A DNA stretch of 64,000 bases from Bacteroidota bacterium (GCA_030684395.1 JAUXTT010000004.1:186001-250000), one strand, 5' to 3'. Positions 10,614 to 20,592 are shown, numbered from the stretch's first letter. Notes: generated by a model from the letters alone, not told the origin. Numbers and translations: made by a program.

Positions 10614-11966
10614 CTACTTCCGTATCACCACTTTCCTATTCACCACTCCCGCTCCTTTGATCACCTTCACAATATAAATTCCATCATACAAAGTTTGCAC
10701 ATCAAAATAAGCGATAGTTGTTCCCTGATAGATCACACTTTCTTTTATTAGTTTCCCATTGATATCATACAATTGCACCTGAACATCTTCTTTGTTTATA
10801 TTTCCAACTTGTACTGCAATAATATCGTTCGCAGGATTAGGGAATACACCAACATTAGATTCAGTTATTGAGTTAGTTTGCAAACCAACAGCAGGTGGAG
10901 TGTAAGTTGTTACTGATTCAGTGATTGAAGTTACCTTTGCAGCCGTCTTCACACCATAGAAATACGGACCTACTGCATATGGATATGCTGAATTCCAATT
11001 TGCATCTACAGTAGCAAAATATGCATAAGTTCCTGCAGGATATTCAGGAGTAACACAAAATCTTCCGTTGTGCGCATCTAAATATTCCGGTTGAGCATTA
11101 GCAATGAATTCATAATCTTCTCTGTATTTTCCTAAGAAATAGGTTGAATTTACAGGAGGCCCATCCGTTACGTTTGTTCCGTCAGCATAATGTGTTCTAA
11201 CAGTAATGTTTCTTAAGTAGTAGCTTGATCTGATACGAGCAATTCCTCCGGTACCATTTGTGTTCTTATATCCATAAGCTCCATAGATCGGGAAGCCATC
11301 ATAAGCAAAACCTATTAATGGTGAATGTTGTGTACTATCAATTGCATACAAACCATCTGCAGCATATAAATTACAAACCGTAGAGATAACATTCAGATCT
11401 AAATTATATGCACTTGGGTTTTGATGATGATGGTAGTTACCCATAGCAGGATGTCCTTTCGAACAATCGAATCCTGCTCTTTCAGCAACAATAGCATCCC
11501 TGTTCCAAATCCCATCTCCCGTTCCACCCAGTGGTCCACCTGCCTCTGCTCCCGTCGAATTTTTATACGAAACGCCATCTCTGTAATCGAACAATGCAAC
11601 ACCGTTAATAAACACCCCAATATTTCCCATAGTTGTAGAAGTTGGTGTACCCGTGTTTTGTACCGGATTTAATGGGAATTTAAAGATCGCATTTTGACTG
11701 GTTGCCAACGAAGGGTTTCCGTCCATAAAAGGGCCCGTCACATAAGCCGGAATTCCTTTGGTGCTCGCATAAACAAAATTTCCGGAATACTGAACGGTTT
11801 GAACATTTACCAATGTTGCATCATTAATTGGAGTTGAATTTCCTGACACATAATGTCTTCCGGTAACACTTGTGTTTTGCAACCAGGAGGTAATTGCAGG
11901 ACTTAACTGTGCATCTGCAAAATAACTTGCAAGCATCAGCGATGATAAAATGAGTGTTTTCTTCAT
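10614..11966 (-). CDS. Secreted YHYH-domain protein with T9SS sorting domain
   Basis: A 450-residue exported protein: signal peptide (1-19, ...ASYFADA), a central YHYH-type domain (about 60-340) and a C-terminal type A T9SS sorting domain (about 375-450, from VGVFPNPANDIIAVQV to NRKVVIRK). The name-giving motif is seen as GNYHHHQNPSAYN, with an upstream FDCSKGHPA and a downstream GFPIYGAYGY typical of YHYH proteins. The biochemical role of the domain is not established; the His cluster is compatible with metal or cofactor binding. It is the last gene of a minus-strand cluster with an ECF sigma factor, MbnP and MbnH, and it has its own copy of the cluster's ECF-type promoter (11998-12026). Export through T9SS to the surface or medium is inferred from the sorting domain. 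Confidence 0.88.
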   Translation of the reverse strand: MKKTLILSSLMLASYFADAQLSPAITSWLQNTSVTGRHYVSGNSTPINDATLVNVQTVQYSGNFVYASTKGIPAYVTGPFMDGNPSLATSQNAIFKFPLNPVQNTGTPTSTTMGNIGVFINGVALFDYRDGVSYKNSTGAEAGGPLGGTGDGIWNRDAIVAERAGFDCSKGHPAMGNYHHHQNPSAYNLDLNVISTVCNLYAADGLYAIDSTQHSPLIGFAYDGFPIYGAYGYKNTNGTGGIARIRSSYYLRNITVRTHYADGTNVTDGPPVNSTYFLGKYREDYEFIANAQPEYLDAHNGRFCVTPEYPAGTYAYFATVDANWNSAYPYAVGPYFYGVKTAAKVTSITESVTTYTPPAVGLQTNSITESNVGVFPNPANDIIAVQVGNINKEDVQVQLYDINGKLIKESVIYQGTTIAYFDVQTLYDGIYIVKVIKGAGVVNRKVVIRK

Positions 11967-11997
11967 ATATATGTTGTTTTGTTTAATCGTTTAGTAA

Positions 11998-12026
11998 TTA
12001 GATGCTACTTGTTTCAAAAACTTGCG
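11998..12026 (-). promoter_or_regulatory. ECF-type promoter copy C, in front of the YHYH gene
   Basis: On the minus strand the site reads CGCAAGTT (12026-12019), 16 bases, then TCTAA (12002-11998). Both halves and the spacing are identical in the two other copies at 14554-14582 and 15181-15209. The predicted transcript starts near 11991, about 25 bases before the ATG. The site begins within the 3' spacer of the MbnH gene. Confidence 0.72.
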
Positions 12027-12037
12027 CTTGGCTTAAA

Positions 12038-13072
12038 TTATTTTTTCCGGGAGGACAGTAAGATATGTTTAGGATATGAGTAATTTTGATCGAATAAGAA
12101 TTTTTTATCCGTTAAAGTGAGCATAAATGCAATGAGATCAACCTTTTCGTTGCTTGTTAATTTGATCTGCTGTTGCAGGTGAGGAGAAAGTGTTTTACTC
12201 GTTTGTACTCCATCCGTATAATGGTCCAAAACCTGTTTCAGTTTTTTGAAACGCCCGTCATGCATATAAGGCATAGAAAATTCAACATTACGAAGAGTAG
12301 GTACTTTGAATTTTAAAGAATCGTTTGGGTCTTTCGAAATACTTACTCTTCCATAGTCATTTAATAAAGTATCCACCGTTAATCCATTGTTCTCAAACTC
12401 CCCATTTGTAAACAAAGGTTCTTTATGGCAGTTACCACAGTTTTTCTGAAACAATTTGTATCCGTTGGTTTCCTGTGAAGAGAACGCCGCTTGTTTCCGC
12501 ATTACGCTATCGTATTTGGAATCTTTACTCACCAAGGTAAGCATGAATTGTGAAATTGCTTTTAATGTATGCTGACCCGTTATGACGCTATCTCCGAATG
12601 CCTCCAAAAAAAGTTGAGGATAAATTTTTGAGCTTTGCAGTTTAGCAACTACATTCTCTATTTTCTCATCCATCTCCAAATGATTACTGATCGGTCCGAG
12701 TGCTTGTACATCCAAATGATTGATAGCACCATCCCACATAAATATTTTTTGCCATGCTAGGTTCATTAAAGCCGGTGAATTACGAGTGCCTATCCTGTCT
12801 TCTATTCCGTGACTCAAAGCATGATCTACATGTGTGAAAGCTGTGTACTGTGAATGGCAACTTGCACAAGAGATAGTATTGTTCTTGGAAAGTATCGGAT
12901 CATAAAACAATGCTCTTCCTAATTCTATTTTTTCTTCCGTTAAAGGGTTTTTAGAAAAATCATATTGCGGTTTGGGCCAATTAGCCGGAGTTTCAAAAAG
13001 CCGCATTTTCATTTGCATAAAAGCAGACAAAAGAACAGGTATCAATATAAAAATCGAGATCTTATTTTTCAT
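12038..13072 (-). CDS. Diheme cytochrome c peroxidase family protein (MbnH-like)
   Basis: A 344-residue periplasmic diheme c-type protein: signal anchor (about 1-20), first heme motif CASCH with downstream FTHVDHALSHG, second heme motif CGNCH, and a late PYMHDGRF segment typical of the CcpA/MbnH superfamily. Family members reduce hydrogen peroxide. The MbnH branch instead uses a high-valent diheme state to oxidise a tryptophan of its partner MbnP to kynurenine. The ATG overlaps the stop of the MbnP gene by four bases (ATGA), so the two are translationally coupled; this pairing is the main reason for preferring MbnH over a plain peroxidase. The length fits the family. Confidence 0.88.
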   Translation of the reverse strand: MKNKISIFILIPVLLSAFMQMKMRLFETPANWPKPQYDFSKNPLTEEKIELGRALFYDPILSKNNTISCASCHSQYTAFTHVDHALSHGIEDRIGTRNSPALMNLAWQKIFMWDGAINHLDVQALGPISNHLEMDEKIENVVAKLQSSKIYPQLFLEAFGDSVITGQHTLKAISQFMLTLVSKDSKYDSVMRKQAAFSSQETNGYKLFQKNCGNCHKEPLFTNGEFENNGLTVDTLLNDYGRVSISKDPNDSLKFKVPTLRNVEFSMPYMHDGRFKKLKQVLDHYTDGVQTSKTLSPHLQQQIKLTSNEKVDLIAFMLTLTDKKFLFDQNYSYPKHILLSSRKK

Positions 13073-13779
13073 TGAGCCTGAACACTAAAAGTTTTTGAAA
13101 TTTTCTGAGCCAATACTACAGCTTCTGCACTTGGCGACATAATATGATCTTGTTTTGAAAGATCAATACCACTTAGTAATTCTTTTATATCAATTTCAAT
13201 TTTATTTGATCTTTTACAATCTAAGGTTACTGTTTGAAAAGCATTAAAAGGTGATTCATATCCACCCACGTGATATTGAAATTCTTGGTTTTTAGATTTA
13301 CAGACATTACTTATACCTTCCAGTTTAAAATTTATATAACCACTTTGCCAGGTCCAGTACATTCCTTTGGTAGGATCCAGGTCACCGCCCATAGCACCGG
13401 AAACGTTAATAGTACTATCGATTCCAATGTTAAATTTTATTTGGTCGCAAATAATAGAAGAAGACCTTTTCAATATAACACTCATTGTTTTTTCCTGAGA
13501 AGCATCTATCAAATGAAAACTGTTTTCTTCTTTCCAAACTGGTTTACCTTTATTCAAAAACTCAATTCCTGAAATATAAAATTTTAATACGTCAAATTGA
13601 ATACTGTCTTTGTCATTTAATTTATAAGAGTATGTGCTAAGTACTAAAGTAGAGTCTCCAAACATCGGCTGAAACACAAGCGTATCCATCTTCTTTACCT
13701 GTGCAGGCAGAAAATGTGAACCCATTACTAAGGTCAGAATGATATATAGATTTTTTCTTTTCAACTTTTTAATCTGCAA
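13069..13779 (-). CDS. MbnP family copper-binding protein
   Basis: A 236-residue exported protein with the family hallmark SGAMGGDLDPTKGMYWTWQS followed by YINFKLEG, then YHVGGYESPF and a late MSPSAEAV. In characterised MbnP/CorA/MopE-type proteins a tryptophan is oxidised to kynurenine, which helps bind Cu(I). The two Trp of YWTWQSGY are candidates, but which residue aligns with the modified one needs an alignment. The start is TTG at 13779, preceded by GGGGAGAT about 11 bases upstream and giving a plausible signal peptide (KKLKRKNLYIILTLVMGS); no upstream ATG exists. It starts seven bases after the stop of the CpxP-like gene and overlaps the MbnH gene. Confidence 0.88.
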   Translation of the reverse strand: MQIKKLKRKNLYIILTLVMGSHFLPAQVKKMDTLVFQPMFGDSTLVLSTYSYKLNDKDSIQFDVLKFYISGIEFLNKGKPVWKEENSFHLIDASQEKTMSVILKRSSSIICDQIKFNIGIDSTINVSGAMGGDLDPTKGMYWTWQSGYINFKLEGISNVCKSKNQEFQYHVGGYESPFNAFQTVTLDCKRSNKIEIDIKELLSGIDLSKQDHIMSPSAEAVVLAQKISKTFSVQAQ

Positions 13780-13786
13780 ATTTGAT

Positions 13787-14254
13787 TTATCTCCCCGGTG
13801 GTGGCCCCATTTGTCCTGATGGCGGCGGTGCCATCTTCATCATGGTTTCTTTAATTAGTCCGTCAAATTTTTTCTTTTGCTCTTCGGTACAAATAGCTCG
13901 TATCCTTTTAAAGTGATAGAAAGTACTTAGCTCCTGCACTTTTTGAAATGCAGCTATTGAATCGGCCATGCGTTCAACCAATAAAGAATCATTTCCTTTT
14001 AATGCATCAAAAAAATCGTCGTGTAGTTTTTTACCTTTTTCTCTGAGTGGCTTGTGACTTGCCCTGTGTTCATCACGCAAAGTTTTGAACTGTTGTTGTT
14101 GTGATTCGCTCAGATTTAATTCTTTGGTAAGGTATTCCAAAGCACCTTCACCTCTTGGTTGCTTATCCTGTTGAATCCACATGTAAGTAAGTGTGGCAAT
14201 ATTTATCAATACCAACAAAGCAATTATTCTTTTTAAGAATTTTTCTCCTTTCAT
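13787..14254 (-). CDS. Membrane-anchored Spy/CpxP/CnrX-like periplasmic sensor
   Basis: A 155-residue protein with one N-terminal membrane anchor (about 9-27, IIALLVLINIATLTYMW) and a helical periplasmic domain with two LTxxQ-type repeats, LSESQQQQF (about 48-56) and CTEEQKKKF (about 121-129), as in Spy, CpxP, ZraP and CnrX. The tail MMKMAPPPSGQMGPPPGR is rich in Met and Pro. CnrX-type members sense metal ions and release an ECF sigma factor via a membrane anti-sigma. The position five bases after the small membrane protein and downstream of an ECF sigma gene fits that role. Copper as the signal is inferred from the neighbours, not shown. Confidence 0.82.
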   Translation of the reverse strand: MKGEKFLKRIIALLVLINIATLTYMWIQQDKQPRGEGALEYLTKELNLSESQQQQFKTLRDEHRASHKPLREKGKKLHDDFFDALKGNDSLLVERMADSIAAFQKVQELSTFYHFKRIRAICTEEQKKKFDGLIKETMMKMAPPPSGQMGPPPGR

Positions 14255-14259
14255 GATTT

Positions 14260-14547
14260 TTAATATTGATTATTTAAATAAGAGAAATATTCTTTTTCAA
14301 AAGCATTGCTTTCGCTGCTCTTTGAACCACCACTATACTGTTTCGCTGAAAACACATTCAGGGTGATTAATAATACTATTCCAGCTGCAATCGACCATCG
14401 CTGCATTGGCGACATGTCAACAATTTTTGCCTCCACTGATTCAACACTCTTCATGATCCTGTCGACCAACAAAGGACTAGCGACCGGACGTTTGATCCCG
14501 TTTAAGCCATTCATTGTGTTTTCGATATTGGTATCTTCTGTGTTCAT
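14260..14547 (-). CDS. Small single-pass membrane protein, probable anti-sigma factor
   Basis: A 95-residue protein: cytoplasmic N-terminal stretch of about 50 residues, one membrane helix (about 52-67, SIAAGIVLLITLNVFS) and a short periplasmic tail. Size and topology match CnrY-type anti-sigma factors, but I see no zinc-binding (ZAS) His/Cys motif. It lies between the ECF sigma gene and the CpxP-like sensor gene, the expected place for an anti-sigma. A separate copy of the ECF-type promoter lies directly in front (14554-14582), so close that the transcript would start at or within a base or two of the ATG. The role is inferred from context. Confidence 0.7.
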   Translation of the reverse strand: MNTEDTNIENTMNGLNGIKRPVASPLLVDRIMKSVESVEAKIVDMSPMQRWSIAAGIVLLITLNVFSAKQYSGGSKSSESNAFEKEYFSYLNNQY

Positions 14548-14553
14548 ATTCTA

Positions 14554-14582
14554 TTAGATGTTAGTTGTATTAAAAACTTGCG
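14554..14582 (-). promoter_or_regulatory. ECF-type promoter copy B, in front of the probable anti-sigma gene
   Basis: CGCAAGTT (14582-14575), 16 bases, TCTAA (14558-14554) on the minus strand. It sits immediately after the sigma-factor stop codon. The predicted start of transcription falls at about 14547, the first base of the downstream ATG. Confidence 0.72.
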
Positions 14583-14583
14583 T

Positions 14584-15162
14584 TTATTTCTCATTTTTAT
14601 GATAATATTCTTTTAAATATTCCTGTAAATTTTGTTTAGCCCTGAATAAAAGAGATTCTACGGAAGAAACGGAAAGCTCCATTACCTCTGCAATTTCAGC
14701 ATAACTAAGGTCTTCAGTTTTACTCAGAATGAAAGCAGTTCTTTGTCTCTCAGGTAATTTATCTATAGCCAAATAAAGAATGGCCGCTCGCTCCTTATTC
14801 TCCAATTGTACTCCCGGATGATAAAAGTGCGGTGTATCAACTTTAGGTGCATTGTCCTCTGCCCCAAACAAAGTCTGAACAAATGCAAAACGTTTTTTGC
14901 GATTTTTCTTTCTTTGAAAATCGAGTGATTTTGTAACGGTTATTCTGTAAATCCAAGTAGAAAGTTTAGACTCCCCCTTGAAATTTTTGACAGAATTGAA
15001 CACTTCTACAAAAACTTCCTGAGTAATATCTTCAGCATCCTCCACATTTTGAAGAATACTTATAGCTGTATTGAACACCCTGTCTTTGAGATCAAGAACA
15101 AGTTTATTAAAGGCATCTCTGTTGCCTTCCTTCAGGGATGCTATTAATTCGATTTCGTTCAA
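14584..15162 (-). CDS. ECF-family RNA polymerase sigma factor
   Basis: A 192-residue sigma-70 family ECF factor: region 2 (about 10-85) with EDAEDITQEVFVEVF and STWIYRITVTKSLDF, and region 4 (about 125-182) with LPERQRTAFILSKTEDLSYA, EIAEVMELSVSSVESLLFRA. The start is TTG at 15162; there is no in-frame ATG upstream and the predicted transcript begins only about 12 bases before. A CGCAAGTT-N16-TCTAA promoter upstream is repeated before two other genes of the cluster, suggesting autoregulation. Its -10 half (GCGTCTAA here) is like many ECF promoters. The neighbouring genes suggest control by the small membrane protein and the CpxP-like sensor. Confidence 0.93.
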   Translation of the reverse strand: MNEIELIASLKEGNRDAFNKLVLDLKDRVFNTAISILQNVEDAEDITQEVFVEVFNSVKNFKGESKLSTWIYRITVTKSLDFQRKKNRKKRFAFVQTLFGAEDNAPKVDTPHFYHPGVQLENKERAAILYLAIDKLPERQRTAFILSKTEDLSYAEIAEVMELSVSSVESLLFRAKQNLQEYLKEYYHKNEK

Positions 15163-15180
15163 AAACAGGGATAATATAGG

Positions 15181-15209
15181 TTAGACGCTATGTATAAAAT
15201 TAACTTGCG
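15181..15209 (-). promoter_or_regulatory. ECF-type promoter copy A, in front of the sigma-factor gene
   Basis: CGCAAGTT (15209-15202), 16 bases, TCTAA (15185-15181) on the minus strand. A second, imperfect copy of the -35-like half with flank (TTTGGCGCAGGTT, 15244-15232) lies exactly 30 bases upstream of TTTGGCGCAAGTT (15214-15202) but has no TCTAA at the right distance. Confidence 0.74.
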
Positions 15210-15244
15210 CCAAATCAGGAAAAAAAATCTGAACCTGCGCCAAA
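15202..15244 (-). repeat. Direct repeat TTTGGCGCA(A/G)GTT, 30-base period
   Basis: Two 13-base copies differing by one base lie between the lysyl oxidase stop and the sigma-factor start. The inner copy is the -35-like half of promoter A; the outer copy could be a second polymerase or regulator contact. Confidence 0.6.
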
Positions 15245-15245
15245 C

Positions 15246-17594
15246 CTATCTTTTCACAACCAATTTTTTTCCTACAGTTCCAAAGTCCGATTTTATATTG
15301 ATGGTATAAACTCCTGTTTGTAAGAAAGTAACATCAATAGTTTGTTCTTCAAAAGCAGTTTTTAATGTTCCCTGAGCAACTTCTCTACCCATTAGATCTA
15401 CAATAGAATAGTTCAGATAAGCAGCTCCTCTGAAATAAGGTTTCACTGTAACCTGATCACTTGCAGGGTTTGGAGTCAAGGTGAAATTATTTCCATTCAC
15501 GTAAGTTTTAACACTTACAGAATTTGGAACCATAACACAAGTGTCACCAATTTCTTTAGCAACGGTTTCAAAATTTTTGTTCACCACATCAATGATGCTA
15601 GCAATACAAATACTTGAATCAGTAAGCACCGAATAATAAACACGACATAATTTTGTTGGAACGTACTTTTTATTGATGGCTGAATCTACATATGAAATTC
15701 CGATCACTTTGCTTCCGCCAACCAAAAACTCTGGTGTGATAGGATAATCAGAGGCAGGAATCATGTTTGTAACATTTAAGATTTGAACTCCACTGAAATC
15801 AATTTCGTAAGCAAGAATCTGATTATTTGGATTAATTATAGTAACATCAAAAAACTGATTGGTTACATCGAGGTTCTCAACACCTAATACCGCAACTTCA
15901 TTTGGATTATGTGCACCTCTCGGGAAATTACACAAAGTATTATTAGATGCTCCATGTCCGGCACACTGATTTACTAATGCAGCGTCAAATACTGTAATAC
16001 TTCCATTAGCATTCAGATCCGTACAAGAAGAAATTGTAGTTGTACTATTTAATATTTGCGAAACATACATCTGCGCATCAGCTGTTTGTTGCATGGTATT
16101 ATTATCAAGGTCTCCACGCTTTGCTCCACCACCGCAAGATCCATTACAATCAACTACTGAATTTCCAAAAGGTGTTCCGGCACAATCTACATAAGCAGGG
16201 CAATTAGTAACTGTATAAAAATTCTTCACACCTGCTGTTTCGCCAATATGAATGCATACCTGAGCCCAGTTGTTTACATAATTTGTTTCGTAATGACCTA
16301 AAGCATCGGGAGACTGATCCCAATTAACTTTTACAGCTAAAGTATAAAAACCGGTATCTACATCCGTAATATCAATCCACTGACAACTTAATCCTGAATT
16401 ATAGATATCCGCGCAACCCGCGGTAATTCCCATATTGCTACATCCGTATTGAGCAGGAATACCAACGGGGCAATCAAGATCCATTACACAGAAACCATTT
16501 TTTCTTCCAATTGGTAATGCATTACCGTTTACATCATACAGTACATAATCTGCATAACCTTCGTAATGCGCATGCCCGTGACAGTTCACAAAATTAAATT
16601 GCGAAGGATTGTTGGTAGGGTTTCCAACATAATAATCCTGCTGCCCAATGTTTTCAATACGGGTATCAAAACGTAAAATAGTTCTGTTTCCGTAACCAGC
16701 TAAACAACCTTCTACCACTTCACAATTGGATGCTGTTGTGTTTCCGATATTTAATGAGTTGATGATACTTTGTTGATTTATGATAAGATCTGGTCCTATA
16801 CAATTCGGGCTCGGAGAATAATAACATGTTCCGGCAACAGTTGCCATTGGATTGTAATTACATGCACTCACATCCATACAACCAACAATTCCACCGGTAT
16901 AATTAACTGCAAAAGCTATAGGACTTGATCCGCAAGCACTTGTTGCATCACCAACACGGATATAATAAACGGTATTAGAATCAAGGGCCGCATTGATAAC
17001 AGCTTTAATTCCACAACCTCCATTATTATCATCATAATAAAGTGTTCCTGTATTTGTTTCATTGATATTTCCTGTACAATTAGCATACACCCACAGTTTT
17101 GTATCGCAGGTATTTGAAGGGAAACAAGTAGTGATCTCATACATTCCGTTTACATCCGGCTGAAAAGTGTACCAGTAATTATGCATAGGAGCAACATAAC
17201 TCCCGGTATCTACCGCAATTGCCTGATTGCAATTACTTCCCGGAGGACAATTAAATGATGTTATTTCCTGTGTGGTGTATTGTCCACCGCTGGCTACTGT
17301 AACTCCGTCATAAGTAACAGTATAAGAACCTGTTCCATAGTTACAGCAGATCCCATCCCCGAATGAATCAAAAATACTGAAGGTTAAACAATTTGTGGTA
17401 TCAACACACACACTGGATCCCGCACTGGTTCCGGATGCTAAAGTGTTACCTGCATTATCTTTCAAATTCCAGGTTATCTCTGCGGGATAATTATCGGGTA
17501 CGATGGTAACAACAACTTGTTTTTGTCCCGCAGGACACTGAGCAAAAACATAAGAAGATAATACACAAAATAAGGCTAGTAATTTTTTCATCAT
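15246..17594 (-). CDS. Secreted lysyl oxidase-domain protein with T9SS sorting domain
   Basis: A 782-residue exported protein. In order: signal peptide (about 1-18), a Cys-rich module with DSFGDGICC (about 20-115), a second extracellular module (about 120-235), a lysyl oxidase domain (about 267-452), a dockerin-like segment with Ca-binding loops GDLDNN and DLNANGSIT (about 494-545), and a type A T9SS domain at the end. The copper-binding motif is CHGHAH (338-343), the pattern C-H-x-H-x-H of animal LOX. Both precursors of the lysine tyrosylquinone cofactor have equivalents: K365 in GRKNGFC and Y398 in ADIYNSGLSCQWIDITDV, the last nine residues being the LOX signature. Copper amine oxidase activity on exported or environmental amines or proteins is inferred. 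ATG 17594 is used; an upstream TTG at 17612 overlaps the promoter box. Confidence 0.9.
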   Translation of the reverse strand: MMKKLLALFCVLSSYVFAQCPAGQKQVVVTIVPDNYPAEITWNLKDNAGNTLASGTSAGSSVCVDTTNCLTFSIFDSFGDGICCNYGTGSYTVTYDGVTVASGGQYTTQEITSFNCPPGSNCNQAIAVDTGSYVAPMHNYWYTFQPDVNGMYEITTCFPSNTCDTKLWVYANCTGNINETNTGTLYYDDNNGGCGIKAVINAALDSNTVYYIRVGDATSACGSSPIAFAVNYTGGIVGCMDVSACNYNPMATVAGTCYYSPSPNCIGPDLIINQQSIINSLNIGNTTASNCEVVEGCLAGYGNRTILRFDTRIENIGQQDYYVGNPTNNPSQFNFVNCHGHAHYEGYADYVLYDVNGNALPIGRKNGFCVMDLDCPVGIPAQYGCSNMGITAGCADIYNSGLSCQWIDITDVDTGFYTLAVKVNWDQSPDALGHYETNYVNNWAQVCIHIGETAGVKNFYTVTNCPAYVDCAGTPFGNSVVDCNGSCGGGAKRGDLDNNTMQQTADAQMYVSQILNSTTTISSCTDLNANGSITVFDAALVNQCAGHGASNNTLCNFPRGAHNPNEVAVLGVENLDVTNQFFDVTIINPNNQILAYEIDFSGVQILNVTNMIPASDYPITPEFLVGGSKVIGISYVDSAINKKYVPTKLCRVYYSVLTDSSICIASIIDVVNKNFETVAKEIGDTCVMVPNSVSVKTYVNGNNFTLTPNPASDQVTVKPYFRGAAYLNYSIVDLMGREVAQGTLKTAFEEQTIDVTFLQTGVYTINIKSDFGTVGKKLVVKR

Positions 17595-17641: not shown

Positions 17642-17867
17642 AAATTTTCTACTAAACAGTGGTTTTTAACTATCGATCAACCCAAAACCTGAACAAAATC
17701 GTTCATATTTGATGAACGTGCGAGCTTCAGTTATTCCATTGTTCTCAAACGAGATGAAATAATCGAATAGGAATGTTCTTCGAAATCATATTATTGCTCG
17801 CGAAATTTTGTTAATAAACCCGTTGATTATATTCAGCATTCCTTTATTCCTGACCTTTGCGGTGCTT

Positions 17868-17875
17868 TATCTTTG
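17868..17875 (+). promoter_or_regulatory. -7 box for the double ligase gene
   Basis: TATCTTTG matches TAnnTTTG; transcription would begin near 17881, in agreement with ATG 17899 and against a TTG start at 17857. The preceding spacer has only a short inverted repeat, GTTCAT-N5-ATGAAC at 17701-17717. Confidence 0.6.
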
Positions 17876-17898
17876 GGTATATTAAATTCAGCAGTAGT

Positions 17899-20592
17899 AT
17901 GGACAAAATTCGTGTAGGTATTATATTTGGCGGACGTTCAAAAGAGCGTGAAATTTCTTTTGCAGGTGGAAGAACAGTTTATGATAATTTAAACAAATCC
18001 ATCTTCGAAGCCGTTCCTCTTTTTGTAGATTCATTTGGAAATTTTGTTTTACTCGATTGGAATTTCGTTTACAAAGGAACTATCCGCGATTTTTATCCTC
18101 CGGTAGAATTTCTTCCTGCAACTGATTCTGAGTTTCAATACTACGCCGAAAACCTTGGAGATCTAAGCCAGGAACAACAGGACGCAATGATCAACAAGAT
18201 CGGAAAAAAAGTTGCCGTTACTGAATTTAAACAATTATTCGATTTTGCCTTTTTATGTTTACACGGACCTTATGGTGAAGACGGAAAAATCCAAGGTCTC
18301 TTAGAATATTTACAGATTCCTTATTCAGGTTCAGGCATACTTCCTTCTGCAATTGGAATTGATAAAAGCGTTCAGAAAAAAATGATGGTGAATGCAGGAT
18401 TTAATTCGCCTGCTTTTTTTAGCATCAACAGAAATGCCTGGATCAACGGAACGGAGAAGGGCTTGTGGGATAAGGCAAAAAAAGAAATTGGTTTTCCGAT
18501 GGTGATCAAACCTGCTAATCAGGGTTCATCCATTGGTGTCACTATTTTATTGGAAGACAGTGAATTCAAATTCATGGAAGCTGTTGAAAAAGCATTATTT
18601 ACACGTTGGGTAGATAGTAAAGAGTGGTTAGCAATGTCGAATGAAGCAAAGAAAATCTATATTCAATCGTTAGCCGACATCCGCGAAGGAATGGGTGTAC
18701 CGGTAAAAATAAATAATACGGTAATTTACAATCCTGATCAGTTAACTACTTACTTAAATAAAAACGCATCCGAACATGAAGGCTTTGTAGTGGAGGCTTT
18801 GGATGGAGAAAGCACTGTATTGATTGAAGGATTTATTGAAGGAAAAGAATTCTCTTGTATTGTAGTTGAAGATGAGAACGGAAAAGCAATTGCATTACCT
18901 CCAACAGAAATCAGAAAAGGAAAAGAACTGTTTGATTACCGCAGCAAATACCTTCCGGGCTTATCAAGAAAGATCACACCTATTGAAGAAAATGATGAAA
19001 CCATTCATGCGATCAGAAAAGAGTGTGAGAAACTATTTTACGCATTGAACTTTGATGTGTATGCACGTATTGATGGTTTCTTAAGTTCGAACGGAAAAAT
19101 ATTTTTGAATGATCCGAACACTACTTCGGGGATGATGCCTTCTTCTTTTTTCTTTCATCAGGCAGCAGAGATCGGTTTGAACCCTTCACAGTTCCTTACG
19201 TTCATCATTCGTACTTCTTTGGCAAAACGTATCCAACATGCAAAAGGTGAGATCGTTTACAATGCTACTTTAGAAAAACTGGATGCATTTTTAGAAAACG
19301 AAAAGTCACAAACAACGAATAAAATAAATGTTGCTGTGATATTGGGAGGTTATTCTTCTGAAAGACATATCTCTGTAGAAAGTGGGAGAAACATTTACGA
19401 AAAACTCGCATCCTCAGTAAAGTATGCACCTATTCCCGTATTCCTTACCGGAAGTAGTAACAATCACAAAATGTACAAAGTGCCGATCAATGCATTATTA
19501 AAAGACAATGCAGATGATATAAGAGAAAAAGTAGAACATTGGAAAGTACATCCTGCGATCAAACAAATTGTAAGTGAATGCGCTTCTATCACCAATAAGT
19601 ATGCGCCCATAAATACAATTCTGGAACCCAAAGAATTAAATTACAACGAGCTTGCGAAAGAAGTATCGGAAGTGTTTATTGCATTACACGGCCGTCCGGG
19701 TGAAGATGGCGATATACAAGAGAAATTAGAAGCAGTTGGTTTATCATATAACGGTTCGGGCAAAGACAGCTCTTCTATCACCATCGACAAATACAAAACC
19801 AACGAGATCCTGATGAAAAACGGGTTATTGGTTGCGAAGCATGCACTAATAACTTGCGACGATTGGAACGCAAAAAAAGAAGAAATAAAAAACACTTTGC
19901 AAAATGAGTATCACTATCCATTTATTGCAAAGCCCGTAGATGATGGTTGCAGTAGCGCAGTAAAAAAAATAAAATCGTTTGAAGAGTTTGAAGCCTTTGC
20001 TAAATTAATTTTTAGAACAAGTGAAGAACTGGATCCACAGGCTGCAGCATTCTTACACATCAAACCAAAAGAAGAGTTCCCGCAAAAACCAGTGATATTG
20101 GTGGAAGAGTTAATTTCGAAAAAAGACGCAAAACACTTTTTAGAAATTACCGGCGGAATGCTTACTAAATTCAATAGCAAAGGTGAAATTGAATACGAAG
20201 TGTTCGAAGCAAGCGAAGCATTATCAGAAGGTGACGTATTAAGTTTAGAAGAAAAATTTTTAGCGGGTCAAGGTCAAAACATCACTCCTGCACGTTATTC
20301 AAGAGATCTAAAAGAAAGACATGCTATTTCTGACAAAGTAAAAGTAGAATTGGAAAAAGCTGCTAAAGCATTAAACGTAATTGGTTATTGTCGTATAGAT
20401 GCATTTGTTCGTGTGTTCGATAACTTAAAAGTAGAAGTAATTTTTATTGAAGTGAACAGCTTGCCGGGCATGACACCTGCAACTTGTATCTACCATCAGG
20501 CAGCAATTAATAATTACAAGCCCTACGAGTTTATAGATAATATTCTTGATTTCGGAGTGAAGAGAAAAGAGCGGAAGATGGTTGGGGCTTAG
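17899..20592 (+). CDS. Tandem D-alanine--D-alanine ligase-like fusion (two ATP-grasp ligase units)
   Basis: An 897-residue protein of two Ddl-like units in one chain. Unit 1 (about 1-455) has GIIFGGRSKEREIS, HGPYGEDGKIQGLLE, PMVIKPANQGSS and FLNDPNTTSGMMPSS. Unit 2 (about 467-897) has VILGGYSSERHISVESG, LHGRPGEDGDIQEKLE, PFIAKPVDDGCSS and IEVNSLPGMTPA. A single Ddl is about 310-370 residues, so both units are complete and enlarged. In unit 2 the metal/substrate motif E-x-N-S-L-P-G-M-T is canonical; in unit 1 it reads D-P-N-T-T-S-G-M, with Asp for Glu and Ser for Pro, so unit 1 may be altered or regulatory. The likely role is joining two D-Ala for peptidoglycan; unit 1 may use another acceptor. 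It is transcribed alone. Confidence 0.88.
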   Translation: MDKIRVGIIFGGRSKEREISFAGGRTVYDNLNKSIFEAVPLFVDSFGNFVLLDWNFVYKGTIRDFYPPVEFLPATDSEFQYYAENLGDLSQEQQDAMINKIGKKVAVTEFKQLFDFAFLCLHGPYGEDGKIQGLLEYLQIPYSGSGILPSAIGIDKSVQKKMMVNAGFNSPAFFSINRNAWINGTEKGLWDKAKKEIGFPMVIKPANQGSSIGVTILLEDSEFKFMEAVEKALFTRWVDSKEWLAMSNEAKKIYIQSLADIREGMGVPVKINNTVIYNPDQLTTYLNKNASEHEGFVVEALDGESTVLIEGFIEGKEFSCIVVEDENGKAIALPPTEIRKGKELFDYRSKYLPGLSRKITPIEENDETIHAIRKECEKLFYALNFDVYARIDGFLSSNGKIFLNDPNTTSGMMPSSFFFHQAAEIGLNPSQFLTFIIRTSLAKRIQHAKGEIVYNATLEKLDAFLENEKSQTTNKINVAVILGGYSSERHISVESGRNIYEKLASSVKYAPIPVFLTGSSNNHKMYKVPINALLKDNADDIREKVEHWKVHPAIKQIVSECASITNKYAPINTILEPKELNYNELAKEVSEVFIALHGRPGEDGDIQEKLEAVGLSYNGSGKDSSSITIDKYKTNEILMKNGLLVAKHALITCDDWNAKKEEIKNTLQNEYHYPFIAKPVDDGCSSAVKKIKSFEEFEAFAKLIFRTSEELDPQAAAFLHIKPKEEFPQKPVILVEELISKKDAKHFLEITGGMLTKFNSKGEIEYEVFEASEALSEGDVLSLEEKFLAGQGQNITPARYSRDLKERHAISDKVKVELEKAAKALNVIGYCRIDAFVRVFDNLKVEVIFIEVNSLPGMTPATCIYHQAAINNYKPYEFIDNILDFGVKRKERKMVGA

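Follow-up and report, generated by a model that had tools for sequence, protein, structure and literature searches.

Does a run of neighboring genes on one strand of a Bacteroidota genome constitute a single circuit that senses copper in the periplasm, and which of the genes belong to it? The locus lies at 17594-10614 on the minus strand of the window, by which we mean the whole stretch of 64,000 nucleotides that was analyzed. The preliminary description had listed seven genes, all of which were recovered as open reading frames with the place, strand, and order claimed: a lysyl oxidase (LOX), an ECF sigma factor, a small protein, an LTXXQ sensor, MbnP, MbnH, and a YHYH protein. Pfam profile searches assigned all of them except the 95-residue small protein to a family above the curated cut-off (Table 1). 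The overlap of the MbnP and MbnH genes by the bases ATGA, also claimed previously, was confirmed at 13072/13069. The small protein had no family match in Pfam or NCBIfam. Its family comprises 35 members, whose genes adjoin ECF and sensor genes, and by analogy with the size and role position of CnrY it is probably an anti-sigma factor.

Table 1. Genes and promoter-like elements of the locus in order of transcription, with coordinates in the window
Feature	Position	Strand	Properties
Lysyl oxidase LOX, judged a neighbor outside the unit	15246..17594	-	PF01186, 107.6 bits (cut-off 20.4)
ECF promoter-like element CGCAAGTT-N14-CGTCTAA	15181..15209	-	Upstream of ECF gene
ECF sigma factor	14584..15162	-	192 aa, TTG start; Sigma70_r2 + Sigma70_r4_2; own ECF-type promoter upstream
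ECF promoter-like element CGCAAGTT-N14-CATCTAA	14554..14582	-	Upstream of small-sensor-MbnP-MbnH operon
Small single-pass protein	14260..14547	-	95 aa, ATG at 14547; one hydrophobic segment
CnrX-fold sensor (predicted fold)	13787..14254	-	155 aa, membrane-anchored, periplasmic; LTXXQ, 42.5 bits (cut-off 24.3)
MbnP	13069..13779	-	PF20243, 146.8 bits (cut-off 27); M140-x-W142-x-W144 + H170
MbnH di-haem enzyme	12038..13072	-	CCP_MauG PF03150, 186.9 bits (cut-off 25.6); CxxCH at C69-H73 and C212-H216
ECF promoter-like element CGCAAGTT-N14-CATCTAA	11998..12026	-	Upstream of YHYH gene
Secreted YHYH protein	10614..11966	-	450 aa; PF14240, 196.6 bits (cut-off 25); Por_Secre_tail, 53.4 bits (cut-off 27)

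The conservation of this arrangement was assessed at YHYH loci drawn from relatives and from a named-genome collection, which gave 98 distinct loci once duplicates had been removed. The named records were Bacteroidota or members of that phylum, nearly all of them metagenome assemblies, with a single cultured strain, Flavobacterium sedimenticola (L144); the remaining labels were one Candidatus Kapaibacterium and a few reading just "bacterium." Additional YHYH matches to other secreted proteins were mostly cross-matches between T9SS tails, and the anchor YHYH protein of each locus was picked by score. The MbnP and MbnH genes adjoin YHYH in 72 of 90 testable loci and the ECF gene does so in only 41 of 73. 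All four of ECF, sensor, MbnP, and MbnH are present in 37 of the 73 testable loci, and about 27 of the 98 distinct loci preserve the exact order of the six genes. These counts are not population frequencies because the sample favors close relatives of the YHYH protein. A T9SS-tailed multicopper oxidase is encoded inside the cluster in about ten loci of relatives, in some of them between MbnH and YHYH, which strengthens the link of the cluster to copper. Of the seven families whose adjacency had been proposed, six thus stay together in dozens of Bacteroidota loci, and LOX is the one that does not (discussed below).

In the 4.87-Mb genome, CGCAAGTT-N14-CRTCTAA matches perfectly at exactly three sites and with one mismatch at none. 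All three fall at this locus, correctly oriented, in the gaps upstream of the ECF, small, and YHYH genes. Because the three promoter elements are unique to the locus, they tie the ECF gene, the operon, and the YHYH gene together. We take the -10 part of the element to resemble promoters of the ECF/sigma-E type, and the pattern would be recognized by the sigma factor encoded here. A version of the motif with a 15-base spacer gave only background in the scan, the spacer being 14 bases, and a scan for sites of the sigma-70 type found no excess of sites.

A cross-species form of the element ([CA]A[AG]G.., spacer, C[AG]TC[TA]AA), whose spacer measures 14 bases at 57 out of 63 counted sites, was found upstream of the small gene in 17/33 loci and upstream of YHYH in 34/99 loci (Fisher p = 3e-20 and 1e-27, respectively, versus other genes). 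As a control, 11 of 893 other neighboring genes carry a match upstream. Genes internal to the operon are nearly devoid of the element (sensor 0/44, MbnH 1/80), and the type of -35 sequence, CAAG or AAGG, agrees between the small-gene and YHYH promoters of one genome in 10 of 10 cases. When the whole of this genome and of ten more, among them G021 with its cluster split across two contigs, was scanned, the element gave 22 matches, 19 of them inside the cluster, against one match for the reversed pattern. The unit consists of six genes, encoding the ECF sigma factor, the small transmembrane protein, the CnrX-fold sensor, MbnP, MbnH, and the YHYH protein, and it is a real conserved regulon.

The AlphaFold2 model of the sensor has a pLDDT of 90.4, with a helix at residues 2-30 as the N-terminal membrane anchor. 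A Foldseek search of the PDB with this model returned CnrX at all of ranks 1-11, with a TM score (target) of up to 0.80. CnrX also leads the VIA-align list with a Z-score of 11.3 and a root mean square deviation of 2.8 Å over 101 residues, values that are modest for a helical bundle, and it stands above CpxP and Spy in the structural ranking. Because the Foldseek E-values are near 0.01 at best and helical bundles readily score well, the argument for the fold rests on the ranking and not on the E-value. The sensor, as modeled, has the CnrX fold with an N-terminal membrane anchor.

The metal ligands of CnrX are for the most part not retained in the sensor. When the CnrX sequence from pMOL28 is aligned with it, the five ligands H42, H46, E63, H119, and M123 fall on L39, T43, R60, H114, and I118, so that only H119 is kept (as H114); the residue ranges of the VIA alignment are consistent with this mapping. 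Other residues are conserved instead: in a set of 30 sequences of the sensor family every one has H63 and C122 and at least 90% have H114, and in a larger set of 45 sequences H63, C122, and H114 are found at 96, 98, and 84%. Judged from sequence conservation, H63, H114, and C122 form a candidate Cys-His-His set that would suit Cu(I).

The regulatory genes invite comparison with CnrYXH of Cupriavidus metallidurans (pMOL28), which has in common with the cluster an ECF sigma factor, a 95-residue single-pass protein, and a sensor with the CnrX fold that is anchored in the membrane. The ECF protein is 28% identical to CnrH (E = 4e-16), and the small protein has no detectable sequence similarity to CnrY. 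An LFGAE string common to this ECF protein and CnrH is not retained by the ECF proteins of the cluster and was given no weight. The gene order is Y-X-H in CnrYXH but sigma-small-sensor in the cluster; the RND pump CnrCBA is the output of the former, whereas that of the latter is MbnP, MbnH, and YHYH; and the sensor keeps one of the five CnrX ligands while H63 and C122 are newly conserved. With two defining features failing, namely the ligands and the order and targets, the cluster is not filed as CnrYXH. The CnrYXH-like control of MbnPH that had been proposed is nevertheless supported by the conserved adjacency, by the three promoter elements, and by CnrX being the best structural match of the sensor: it is control of the CnrYXH type in a variant with other ligands, order, and targets.

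The proteins placed under this control retain the residues expected of their families. M140, W142, W144, and H170 of MbnP are kept in 72/72 homologues, and both CxxCH motifs of MbnH in 78/78. MbnH also matches the solved structure 6e1c at 5e-39. In NCBIfam the haem protein is matched best by "MbnH family di-heme enzyme" (TIGR04039) at 219.3 bits, under the equivalog cut-off of 362.85, and MbnP scores 40.5 bits against the equivalog TIGR04052, under the cut-off of 140; the two proteins are therefore divergent members. MbnH reportedly turns the first Trp of the WxW motif of MbnP into kynurenine, a change said to be needed for Cu(I) binding. In the YHYH protein the invariant Tyr and His residues are H172, Y178, H179, H181, and H214. 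A literature search turned up no functional study of the YHYH family, and a comparison of the MbnP and YHYH sequences with solved structures yielded nothing except T9SS tails. The structure model of YHYH is weak (pLDDT 69), its best matches span only a domain of the size of a T9SS tail, and no fold is claimed. Its Por_Secre_tail domain, its adjacency, and the shared promoter element uphold the earlier view of YHYH as a T9SS-exported partner of the system.

We consider it rather probable that the six genes form a complete ECF regulon of their own, directed at copper in the periplasm. As long as the cell is at rest, the sigma factor would be kept at the inner membrane by the small protein, which itself probably docks to the membrane-anchored sensor. 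The signal would be copper, most likely excess Cu(I), and its binding to the Cys/His/His set of the sensor would release the sigma factor. Freed sigma would read the three promoters and so raise the production of sigma itself, of the operon for anti-sigma, sensor, MbnP, and MbnH, and of YHYH. Because the anti-sigma and sensor genes share an operon with MbnP and MbnH, the brake would be made together with the output. MbnH would oxidize the first Trp of the WxW motif, Trp142, to kynurenine, and MbnP, which is probably periplasmic, would then bind Cu(I) in that compartment. YHYH would leave through the T9SS and might act on copper or on a copper-dependent surface process.

The same circuit could operate with the opposite sign, so that the sensor frees sigma on loss of copper and MbnP and YHYH scavenge the metal for cuproenzymes during shortage, as is thought for CorA/MopE in methanotrophs. 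There is precedent in CorA, a kynurenine Cu(I) protein, and CorB, its di-haem partner, both of which are produced when copper is low (PMC3912023), and in the methanobactin copper-acquisition operons, which contain MbnPH (PMC3621798). We nonetheless judge this reading rather unlikely: CnrX frees sigma upon metal binding (PMC7689651), no uptake transporter stood out among the recurrent neighbors, and the multicopper oxidases of relatives suit detoxification at least equally.

It is also conceivable, if improbable, that the ECF-small-sensor trio is a general sensor of envelope stress, redox state, or another metal (Ag, Ni, Co, or Zn), with Cys122 as a thiol switch and MbnPH as just one of its outputs. 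The LTXXQ sensor family takes in CpxP and Spy, but it is CnrX that the structural ranking places over both. One trio with the same H/H/C set (L246) lies beside non-copper genes; the same genome, however, bears an unlinked MbnP-MbnH-YHYH group with an element-like site preceding MbnP, and this trio may therefore act in trans. In L261, a related trio with a Cys-less sensor, the short flank contains no copper genes, which also speaks against a general role, as does the near confinement of the element to the cluster. Two loci (L079 and L088) have YHYH with ECF and sensor genes and no adjacent MbnPH, and the output set of the circuit is therefore not fixed; YHYH may remain under ECF control without MbnPH.

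On the reading that we favor, excess copper sensed in the periplasm, the cluster can be set beside other kynurenine copper proteins. Methanobactin and other operons (PMC3621798) contain MbnP/MbnH pairs of the same families, which are likewise tightly joined and have the M-x-W-x-W motif with a His and two CxxCH motifs. The cluster differs from these pairs in that no methanobactin genes were noticed in it, its regulators are a CnrX-type trio and not a FecIR-like MbnIR pair, its scores lie under the equivalog cut-offs, and a T9SS-exported YHYH follows. CorA/CorB and MopE/SACCP of methanotrophs (PMC3912023) have in common with it an exported Cu(I) protein with a Trp-derived kynurenine and a di-haem enzyme transcribed together with that protein. 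CorA/CorB is copper-repressed, and the portion of that source considered makes no mention of an ECF trio.

We tentatively propose that a retooled Cys-His-His sensor of the CnrX fold is dedicated in Bacteroidota to sensing Cu(I) in the periplasm, driving a kynurenine copper protein and a T9SS-exported YHYH copper protein, joined in some lineages by a secreted multicopper oxidase. Such a copper route from periplasm to surface would be new as far as the literature was searched, and it would place ligands of a copper type on the CnrX fold. A match to MbnP occurs in 298 of 395 genomes of the class; MbnP/MbnH pairs are common there, and having a sensor, a sigma factor, and a promoter to point to makes their role outside the methanotrophs testable. 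The regulon likewise lends the YHYH family a regulatory context. MbnP and MbnH are paired once more in this genome, on another contig, where the short flank covered contains no YHYH and no ECF gene.

The lysyl oxidase had been counted as part of the copper circuit, and that claim did not hold. That it belongs there, as a copper oxidase acting outside the cell and served by MbnP and YHYH, is scarcely credible. It comes from a copper enzyme family, bears a T9SS tail (49.4 bits, cut-off 27), and lies on the same strand as the cluster, 84 bases from the ECF start. Yet it occurs in none of the 98 distinct cluster loci, and the 20 loci of strong LOX homologues all lack MbnP and MbnH as well as a small gene, sensor, or ECF of the cluster type. 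No CGCAAGTT-N14-CRTCTAA element lies upstream of it, and none of the 14 same-family genomes listed besides this one has LOX, including several with the cluster. Membership in the unit was thus rejected from both directions, and the failure of co-location together with the lack of the element makes LOX a chance neighbor. Matches to the LOX profile, many of them weak, occur in 97 of 395 genomes of the class. The LOX gene presumably has a housekeeping-like promoter of the Bacteroidota type, TTTG ... TAAATTTG, located by eye at about 17641-17610, some 16-50 bases before the ATG.

The ECF sigma factor gene, the small gene, the sensor gene and the YHYH gene, together with both promoters, were retained at L079 (genome G001, of the same genus) and L088 (genome G016). 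MbnPH was not adjacent at either locus; G001 carries three MbnP genes at other places in its genome. The second MbnP-MbnH pair of the source genome had neither a YHYH gene nor an ECF gene within the short flank seen. This pair adjoins a regulator of the SpoIIE-like phosphatase type, named by eye.

At the second promoter element, only six bases separate the end of the -10 from the ATG of the small gene, and a further in-frame ATG lies 11 codons downstream. With so short a spacing, the small gene may have a leaderless transcript, or its translation may begin at that downstream ATG. Additional element sites were found outside the cluster, as a divergent pair in genome G003 and as a further site in genome G021; these are possible further members of the regulon.

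Coordinates of the features described (window positions unless a genome and contig are named)
Feature	Position	Strand
Second element, -10 end to small-gene ATG	14554-14547	
Lysyl oxidase with T9SS tail	15246-17594	-
911-aa ORF	17857-20592	+
Second MbnP-MbnH pair (L002)	G000:C29:308992-309585	
Divergent element sites (L229, L234)	G003:C68:11983-12069	
Additional element site (L225)	G021:C7:25912	

In several relatives (L118, L130, L112, L115, L103 and L135), the YHYH gene is flanked by one sulfatase-like and one thioredoxin-like gene, both labels being assigned by eye, and a multicopper oxidase is often present too.

Long proteins like the window lysyl oxidase were found again in about 20 relatives. 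Judged by eye, the strings CHxHxHY, GxKxxFC and YVNN in the window protein resemble the residues for copper and LTQ in animal lysyl oxidases. The single 911-aa ORF comprises two D-Ala-D-Ala ligase modules in tandem, with the N-terminal domain matched twice and the C-terminal domain in four stretches, an unusual fusion.
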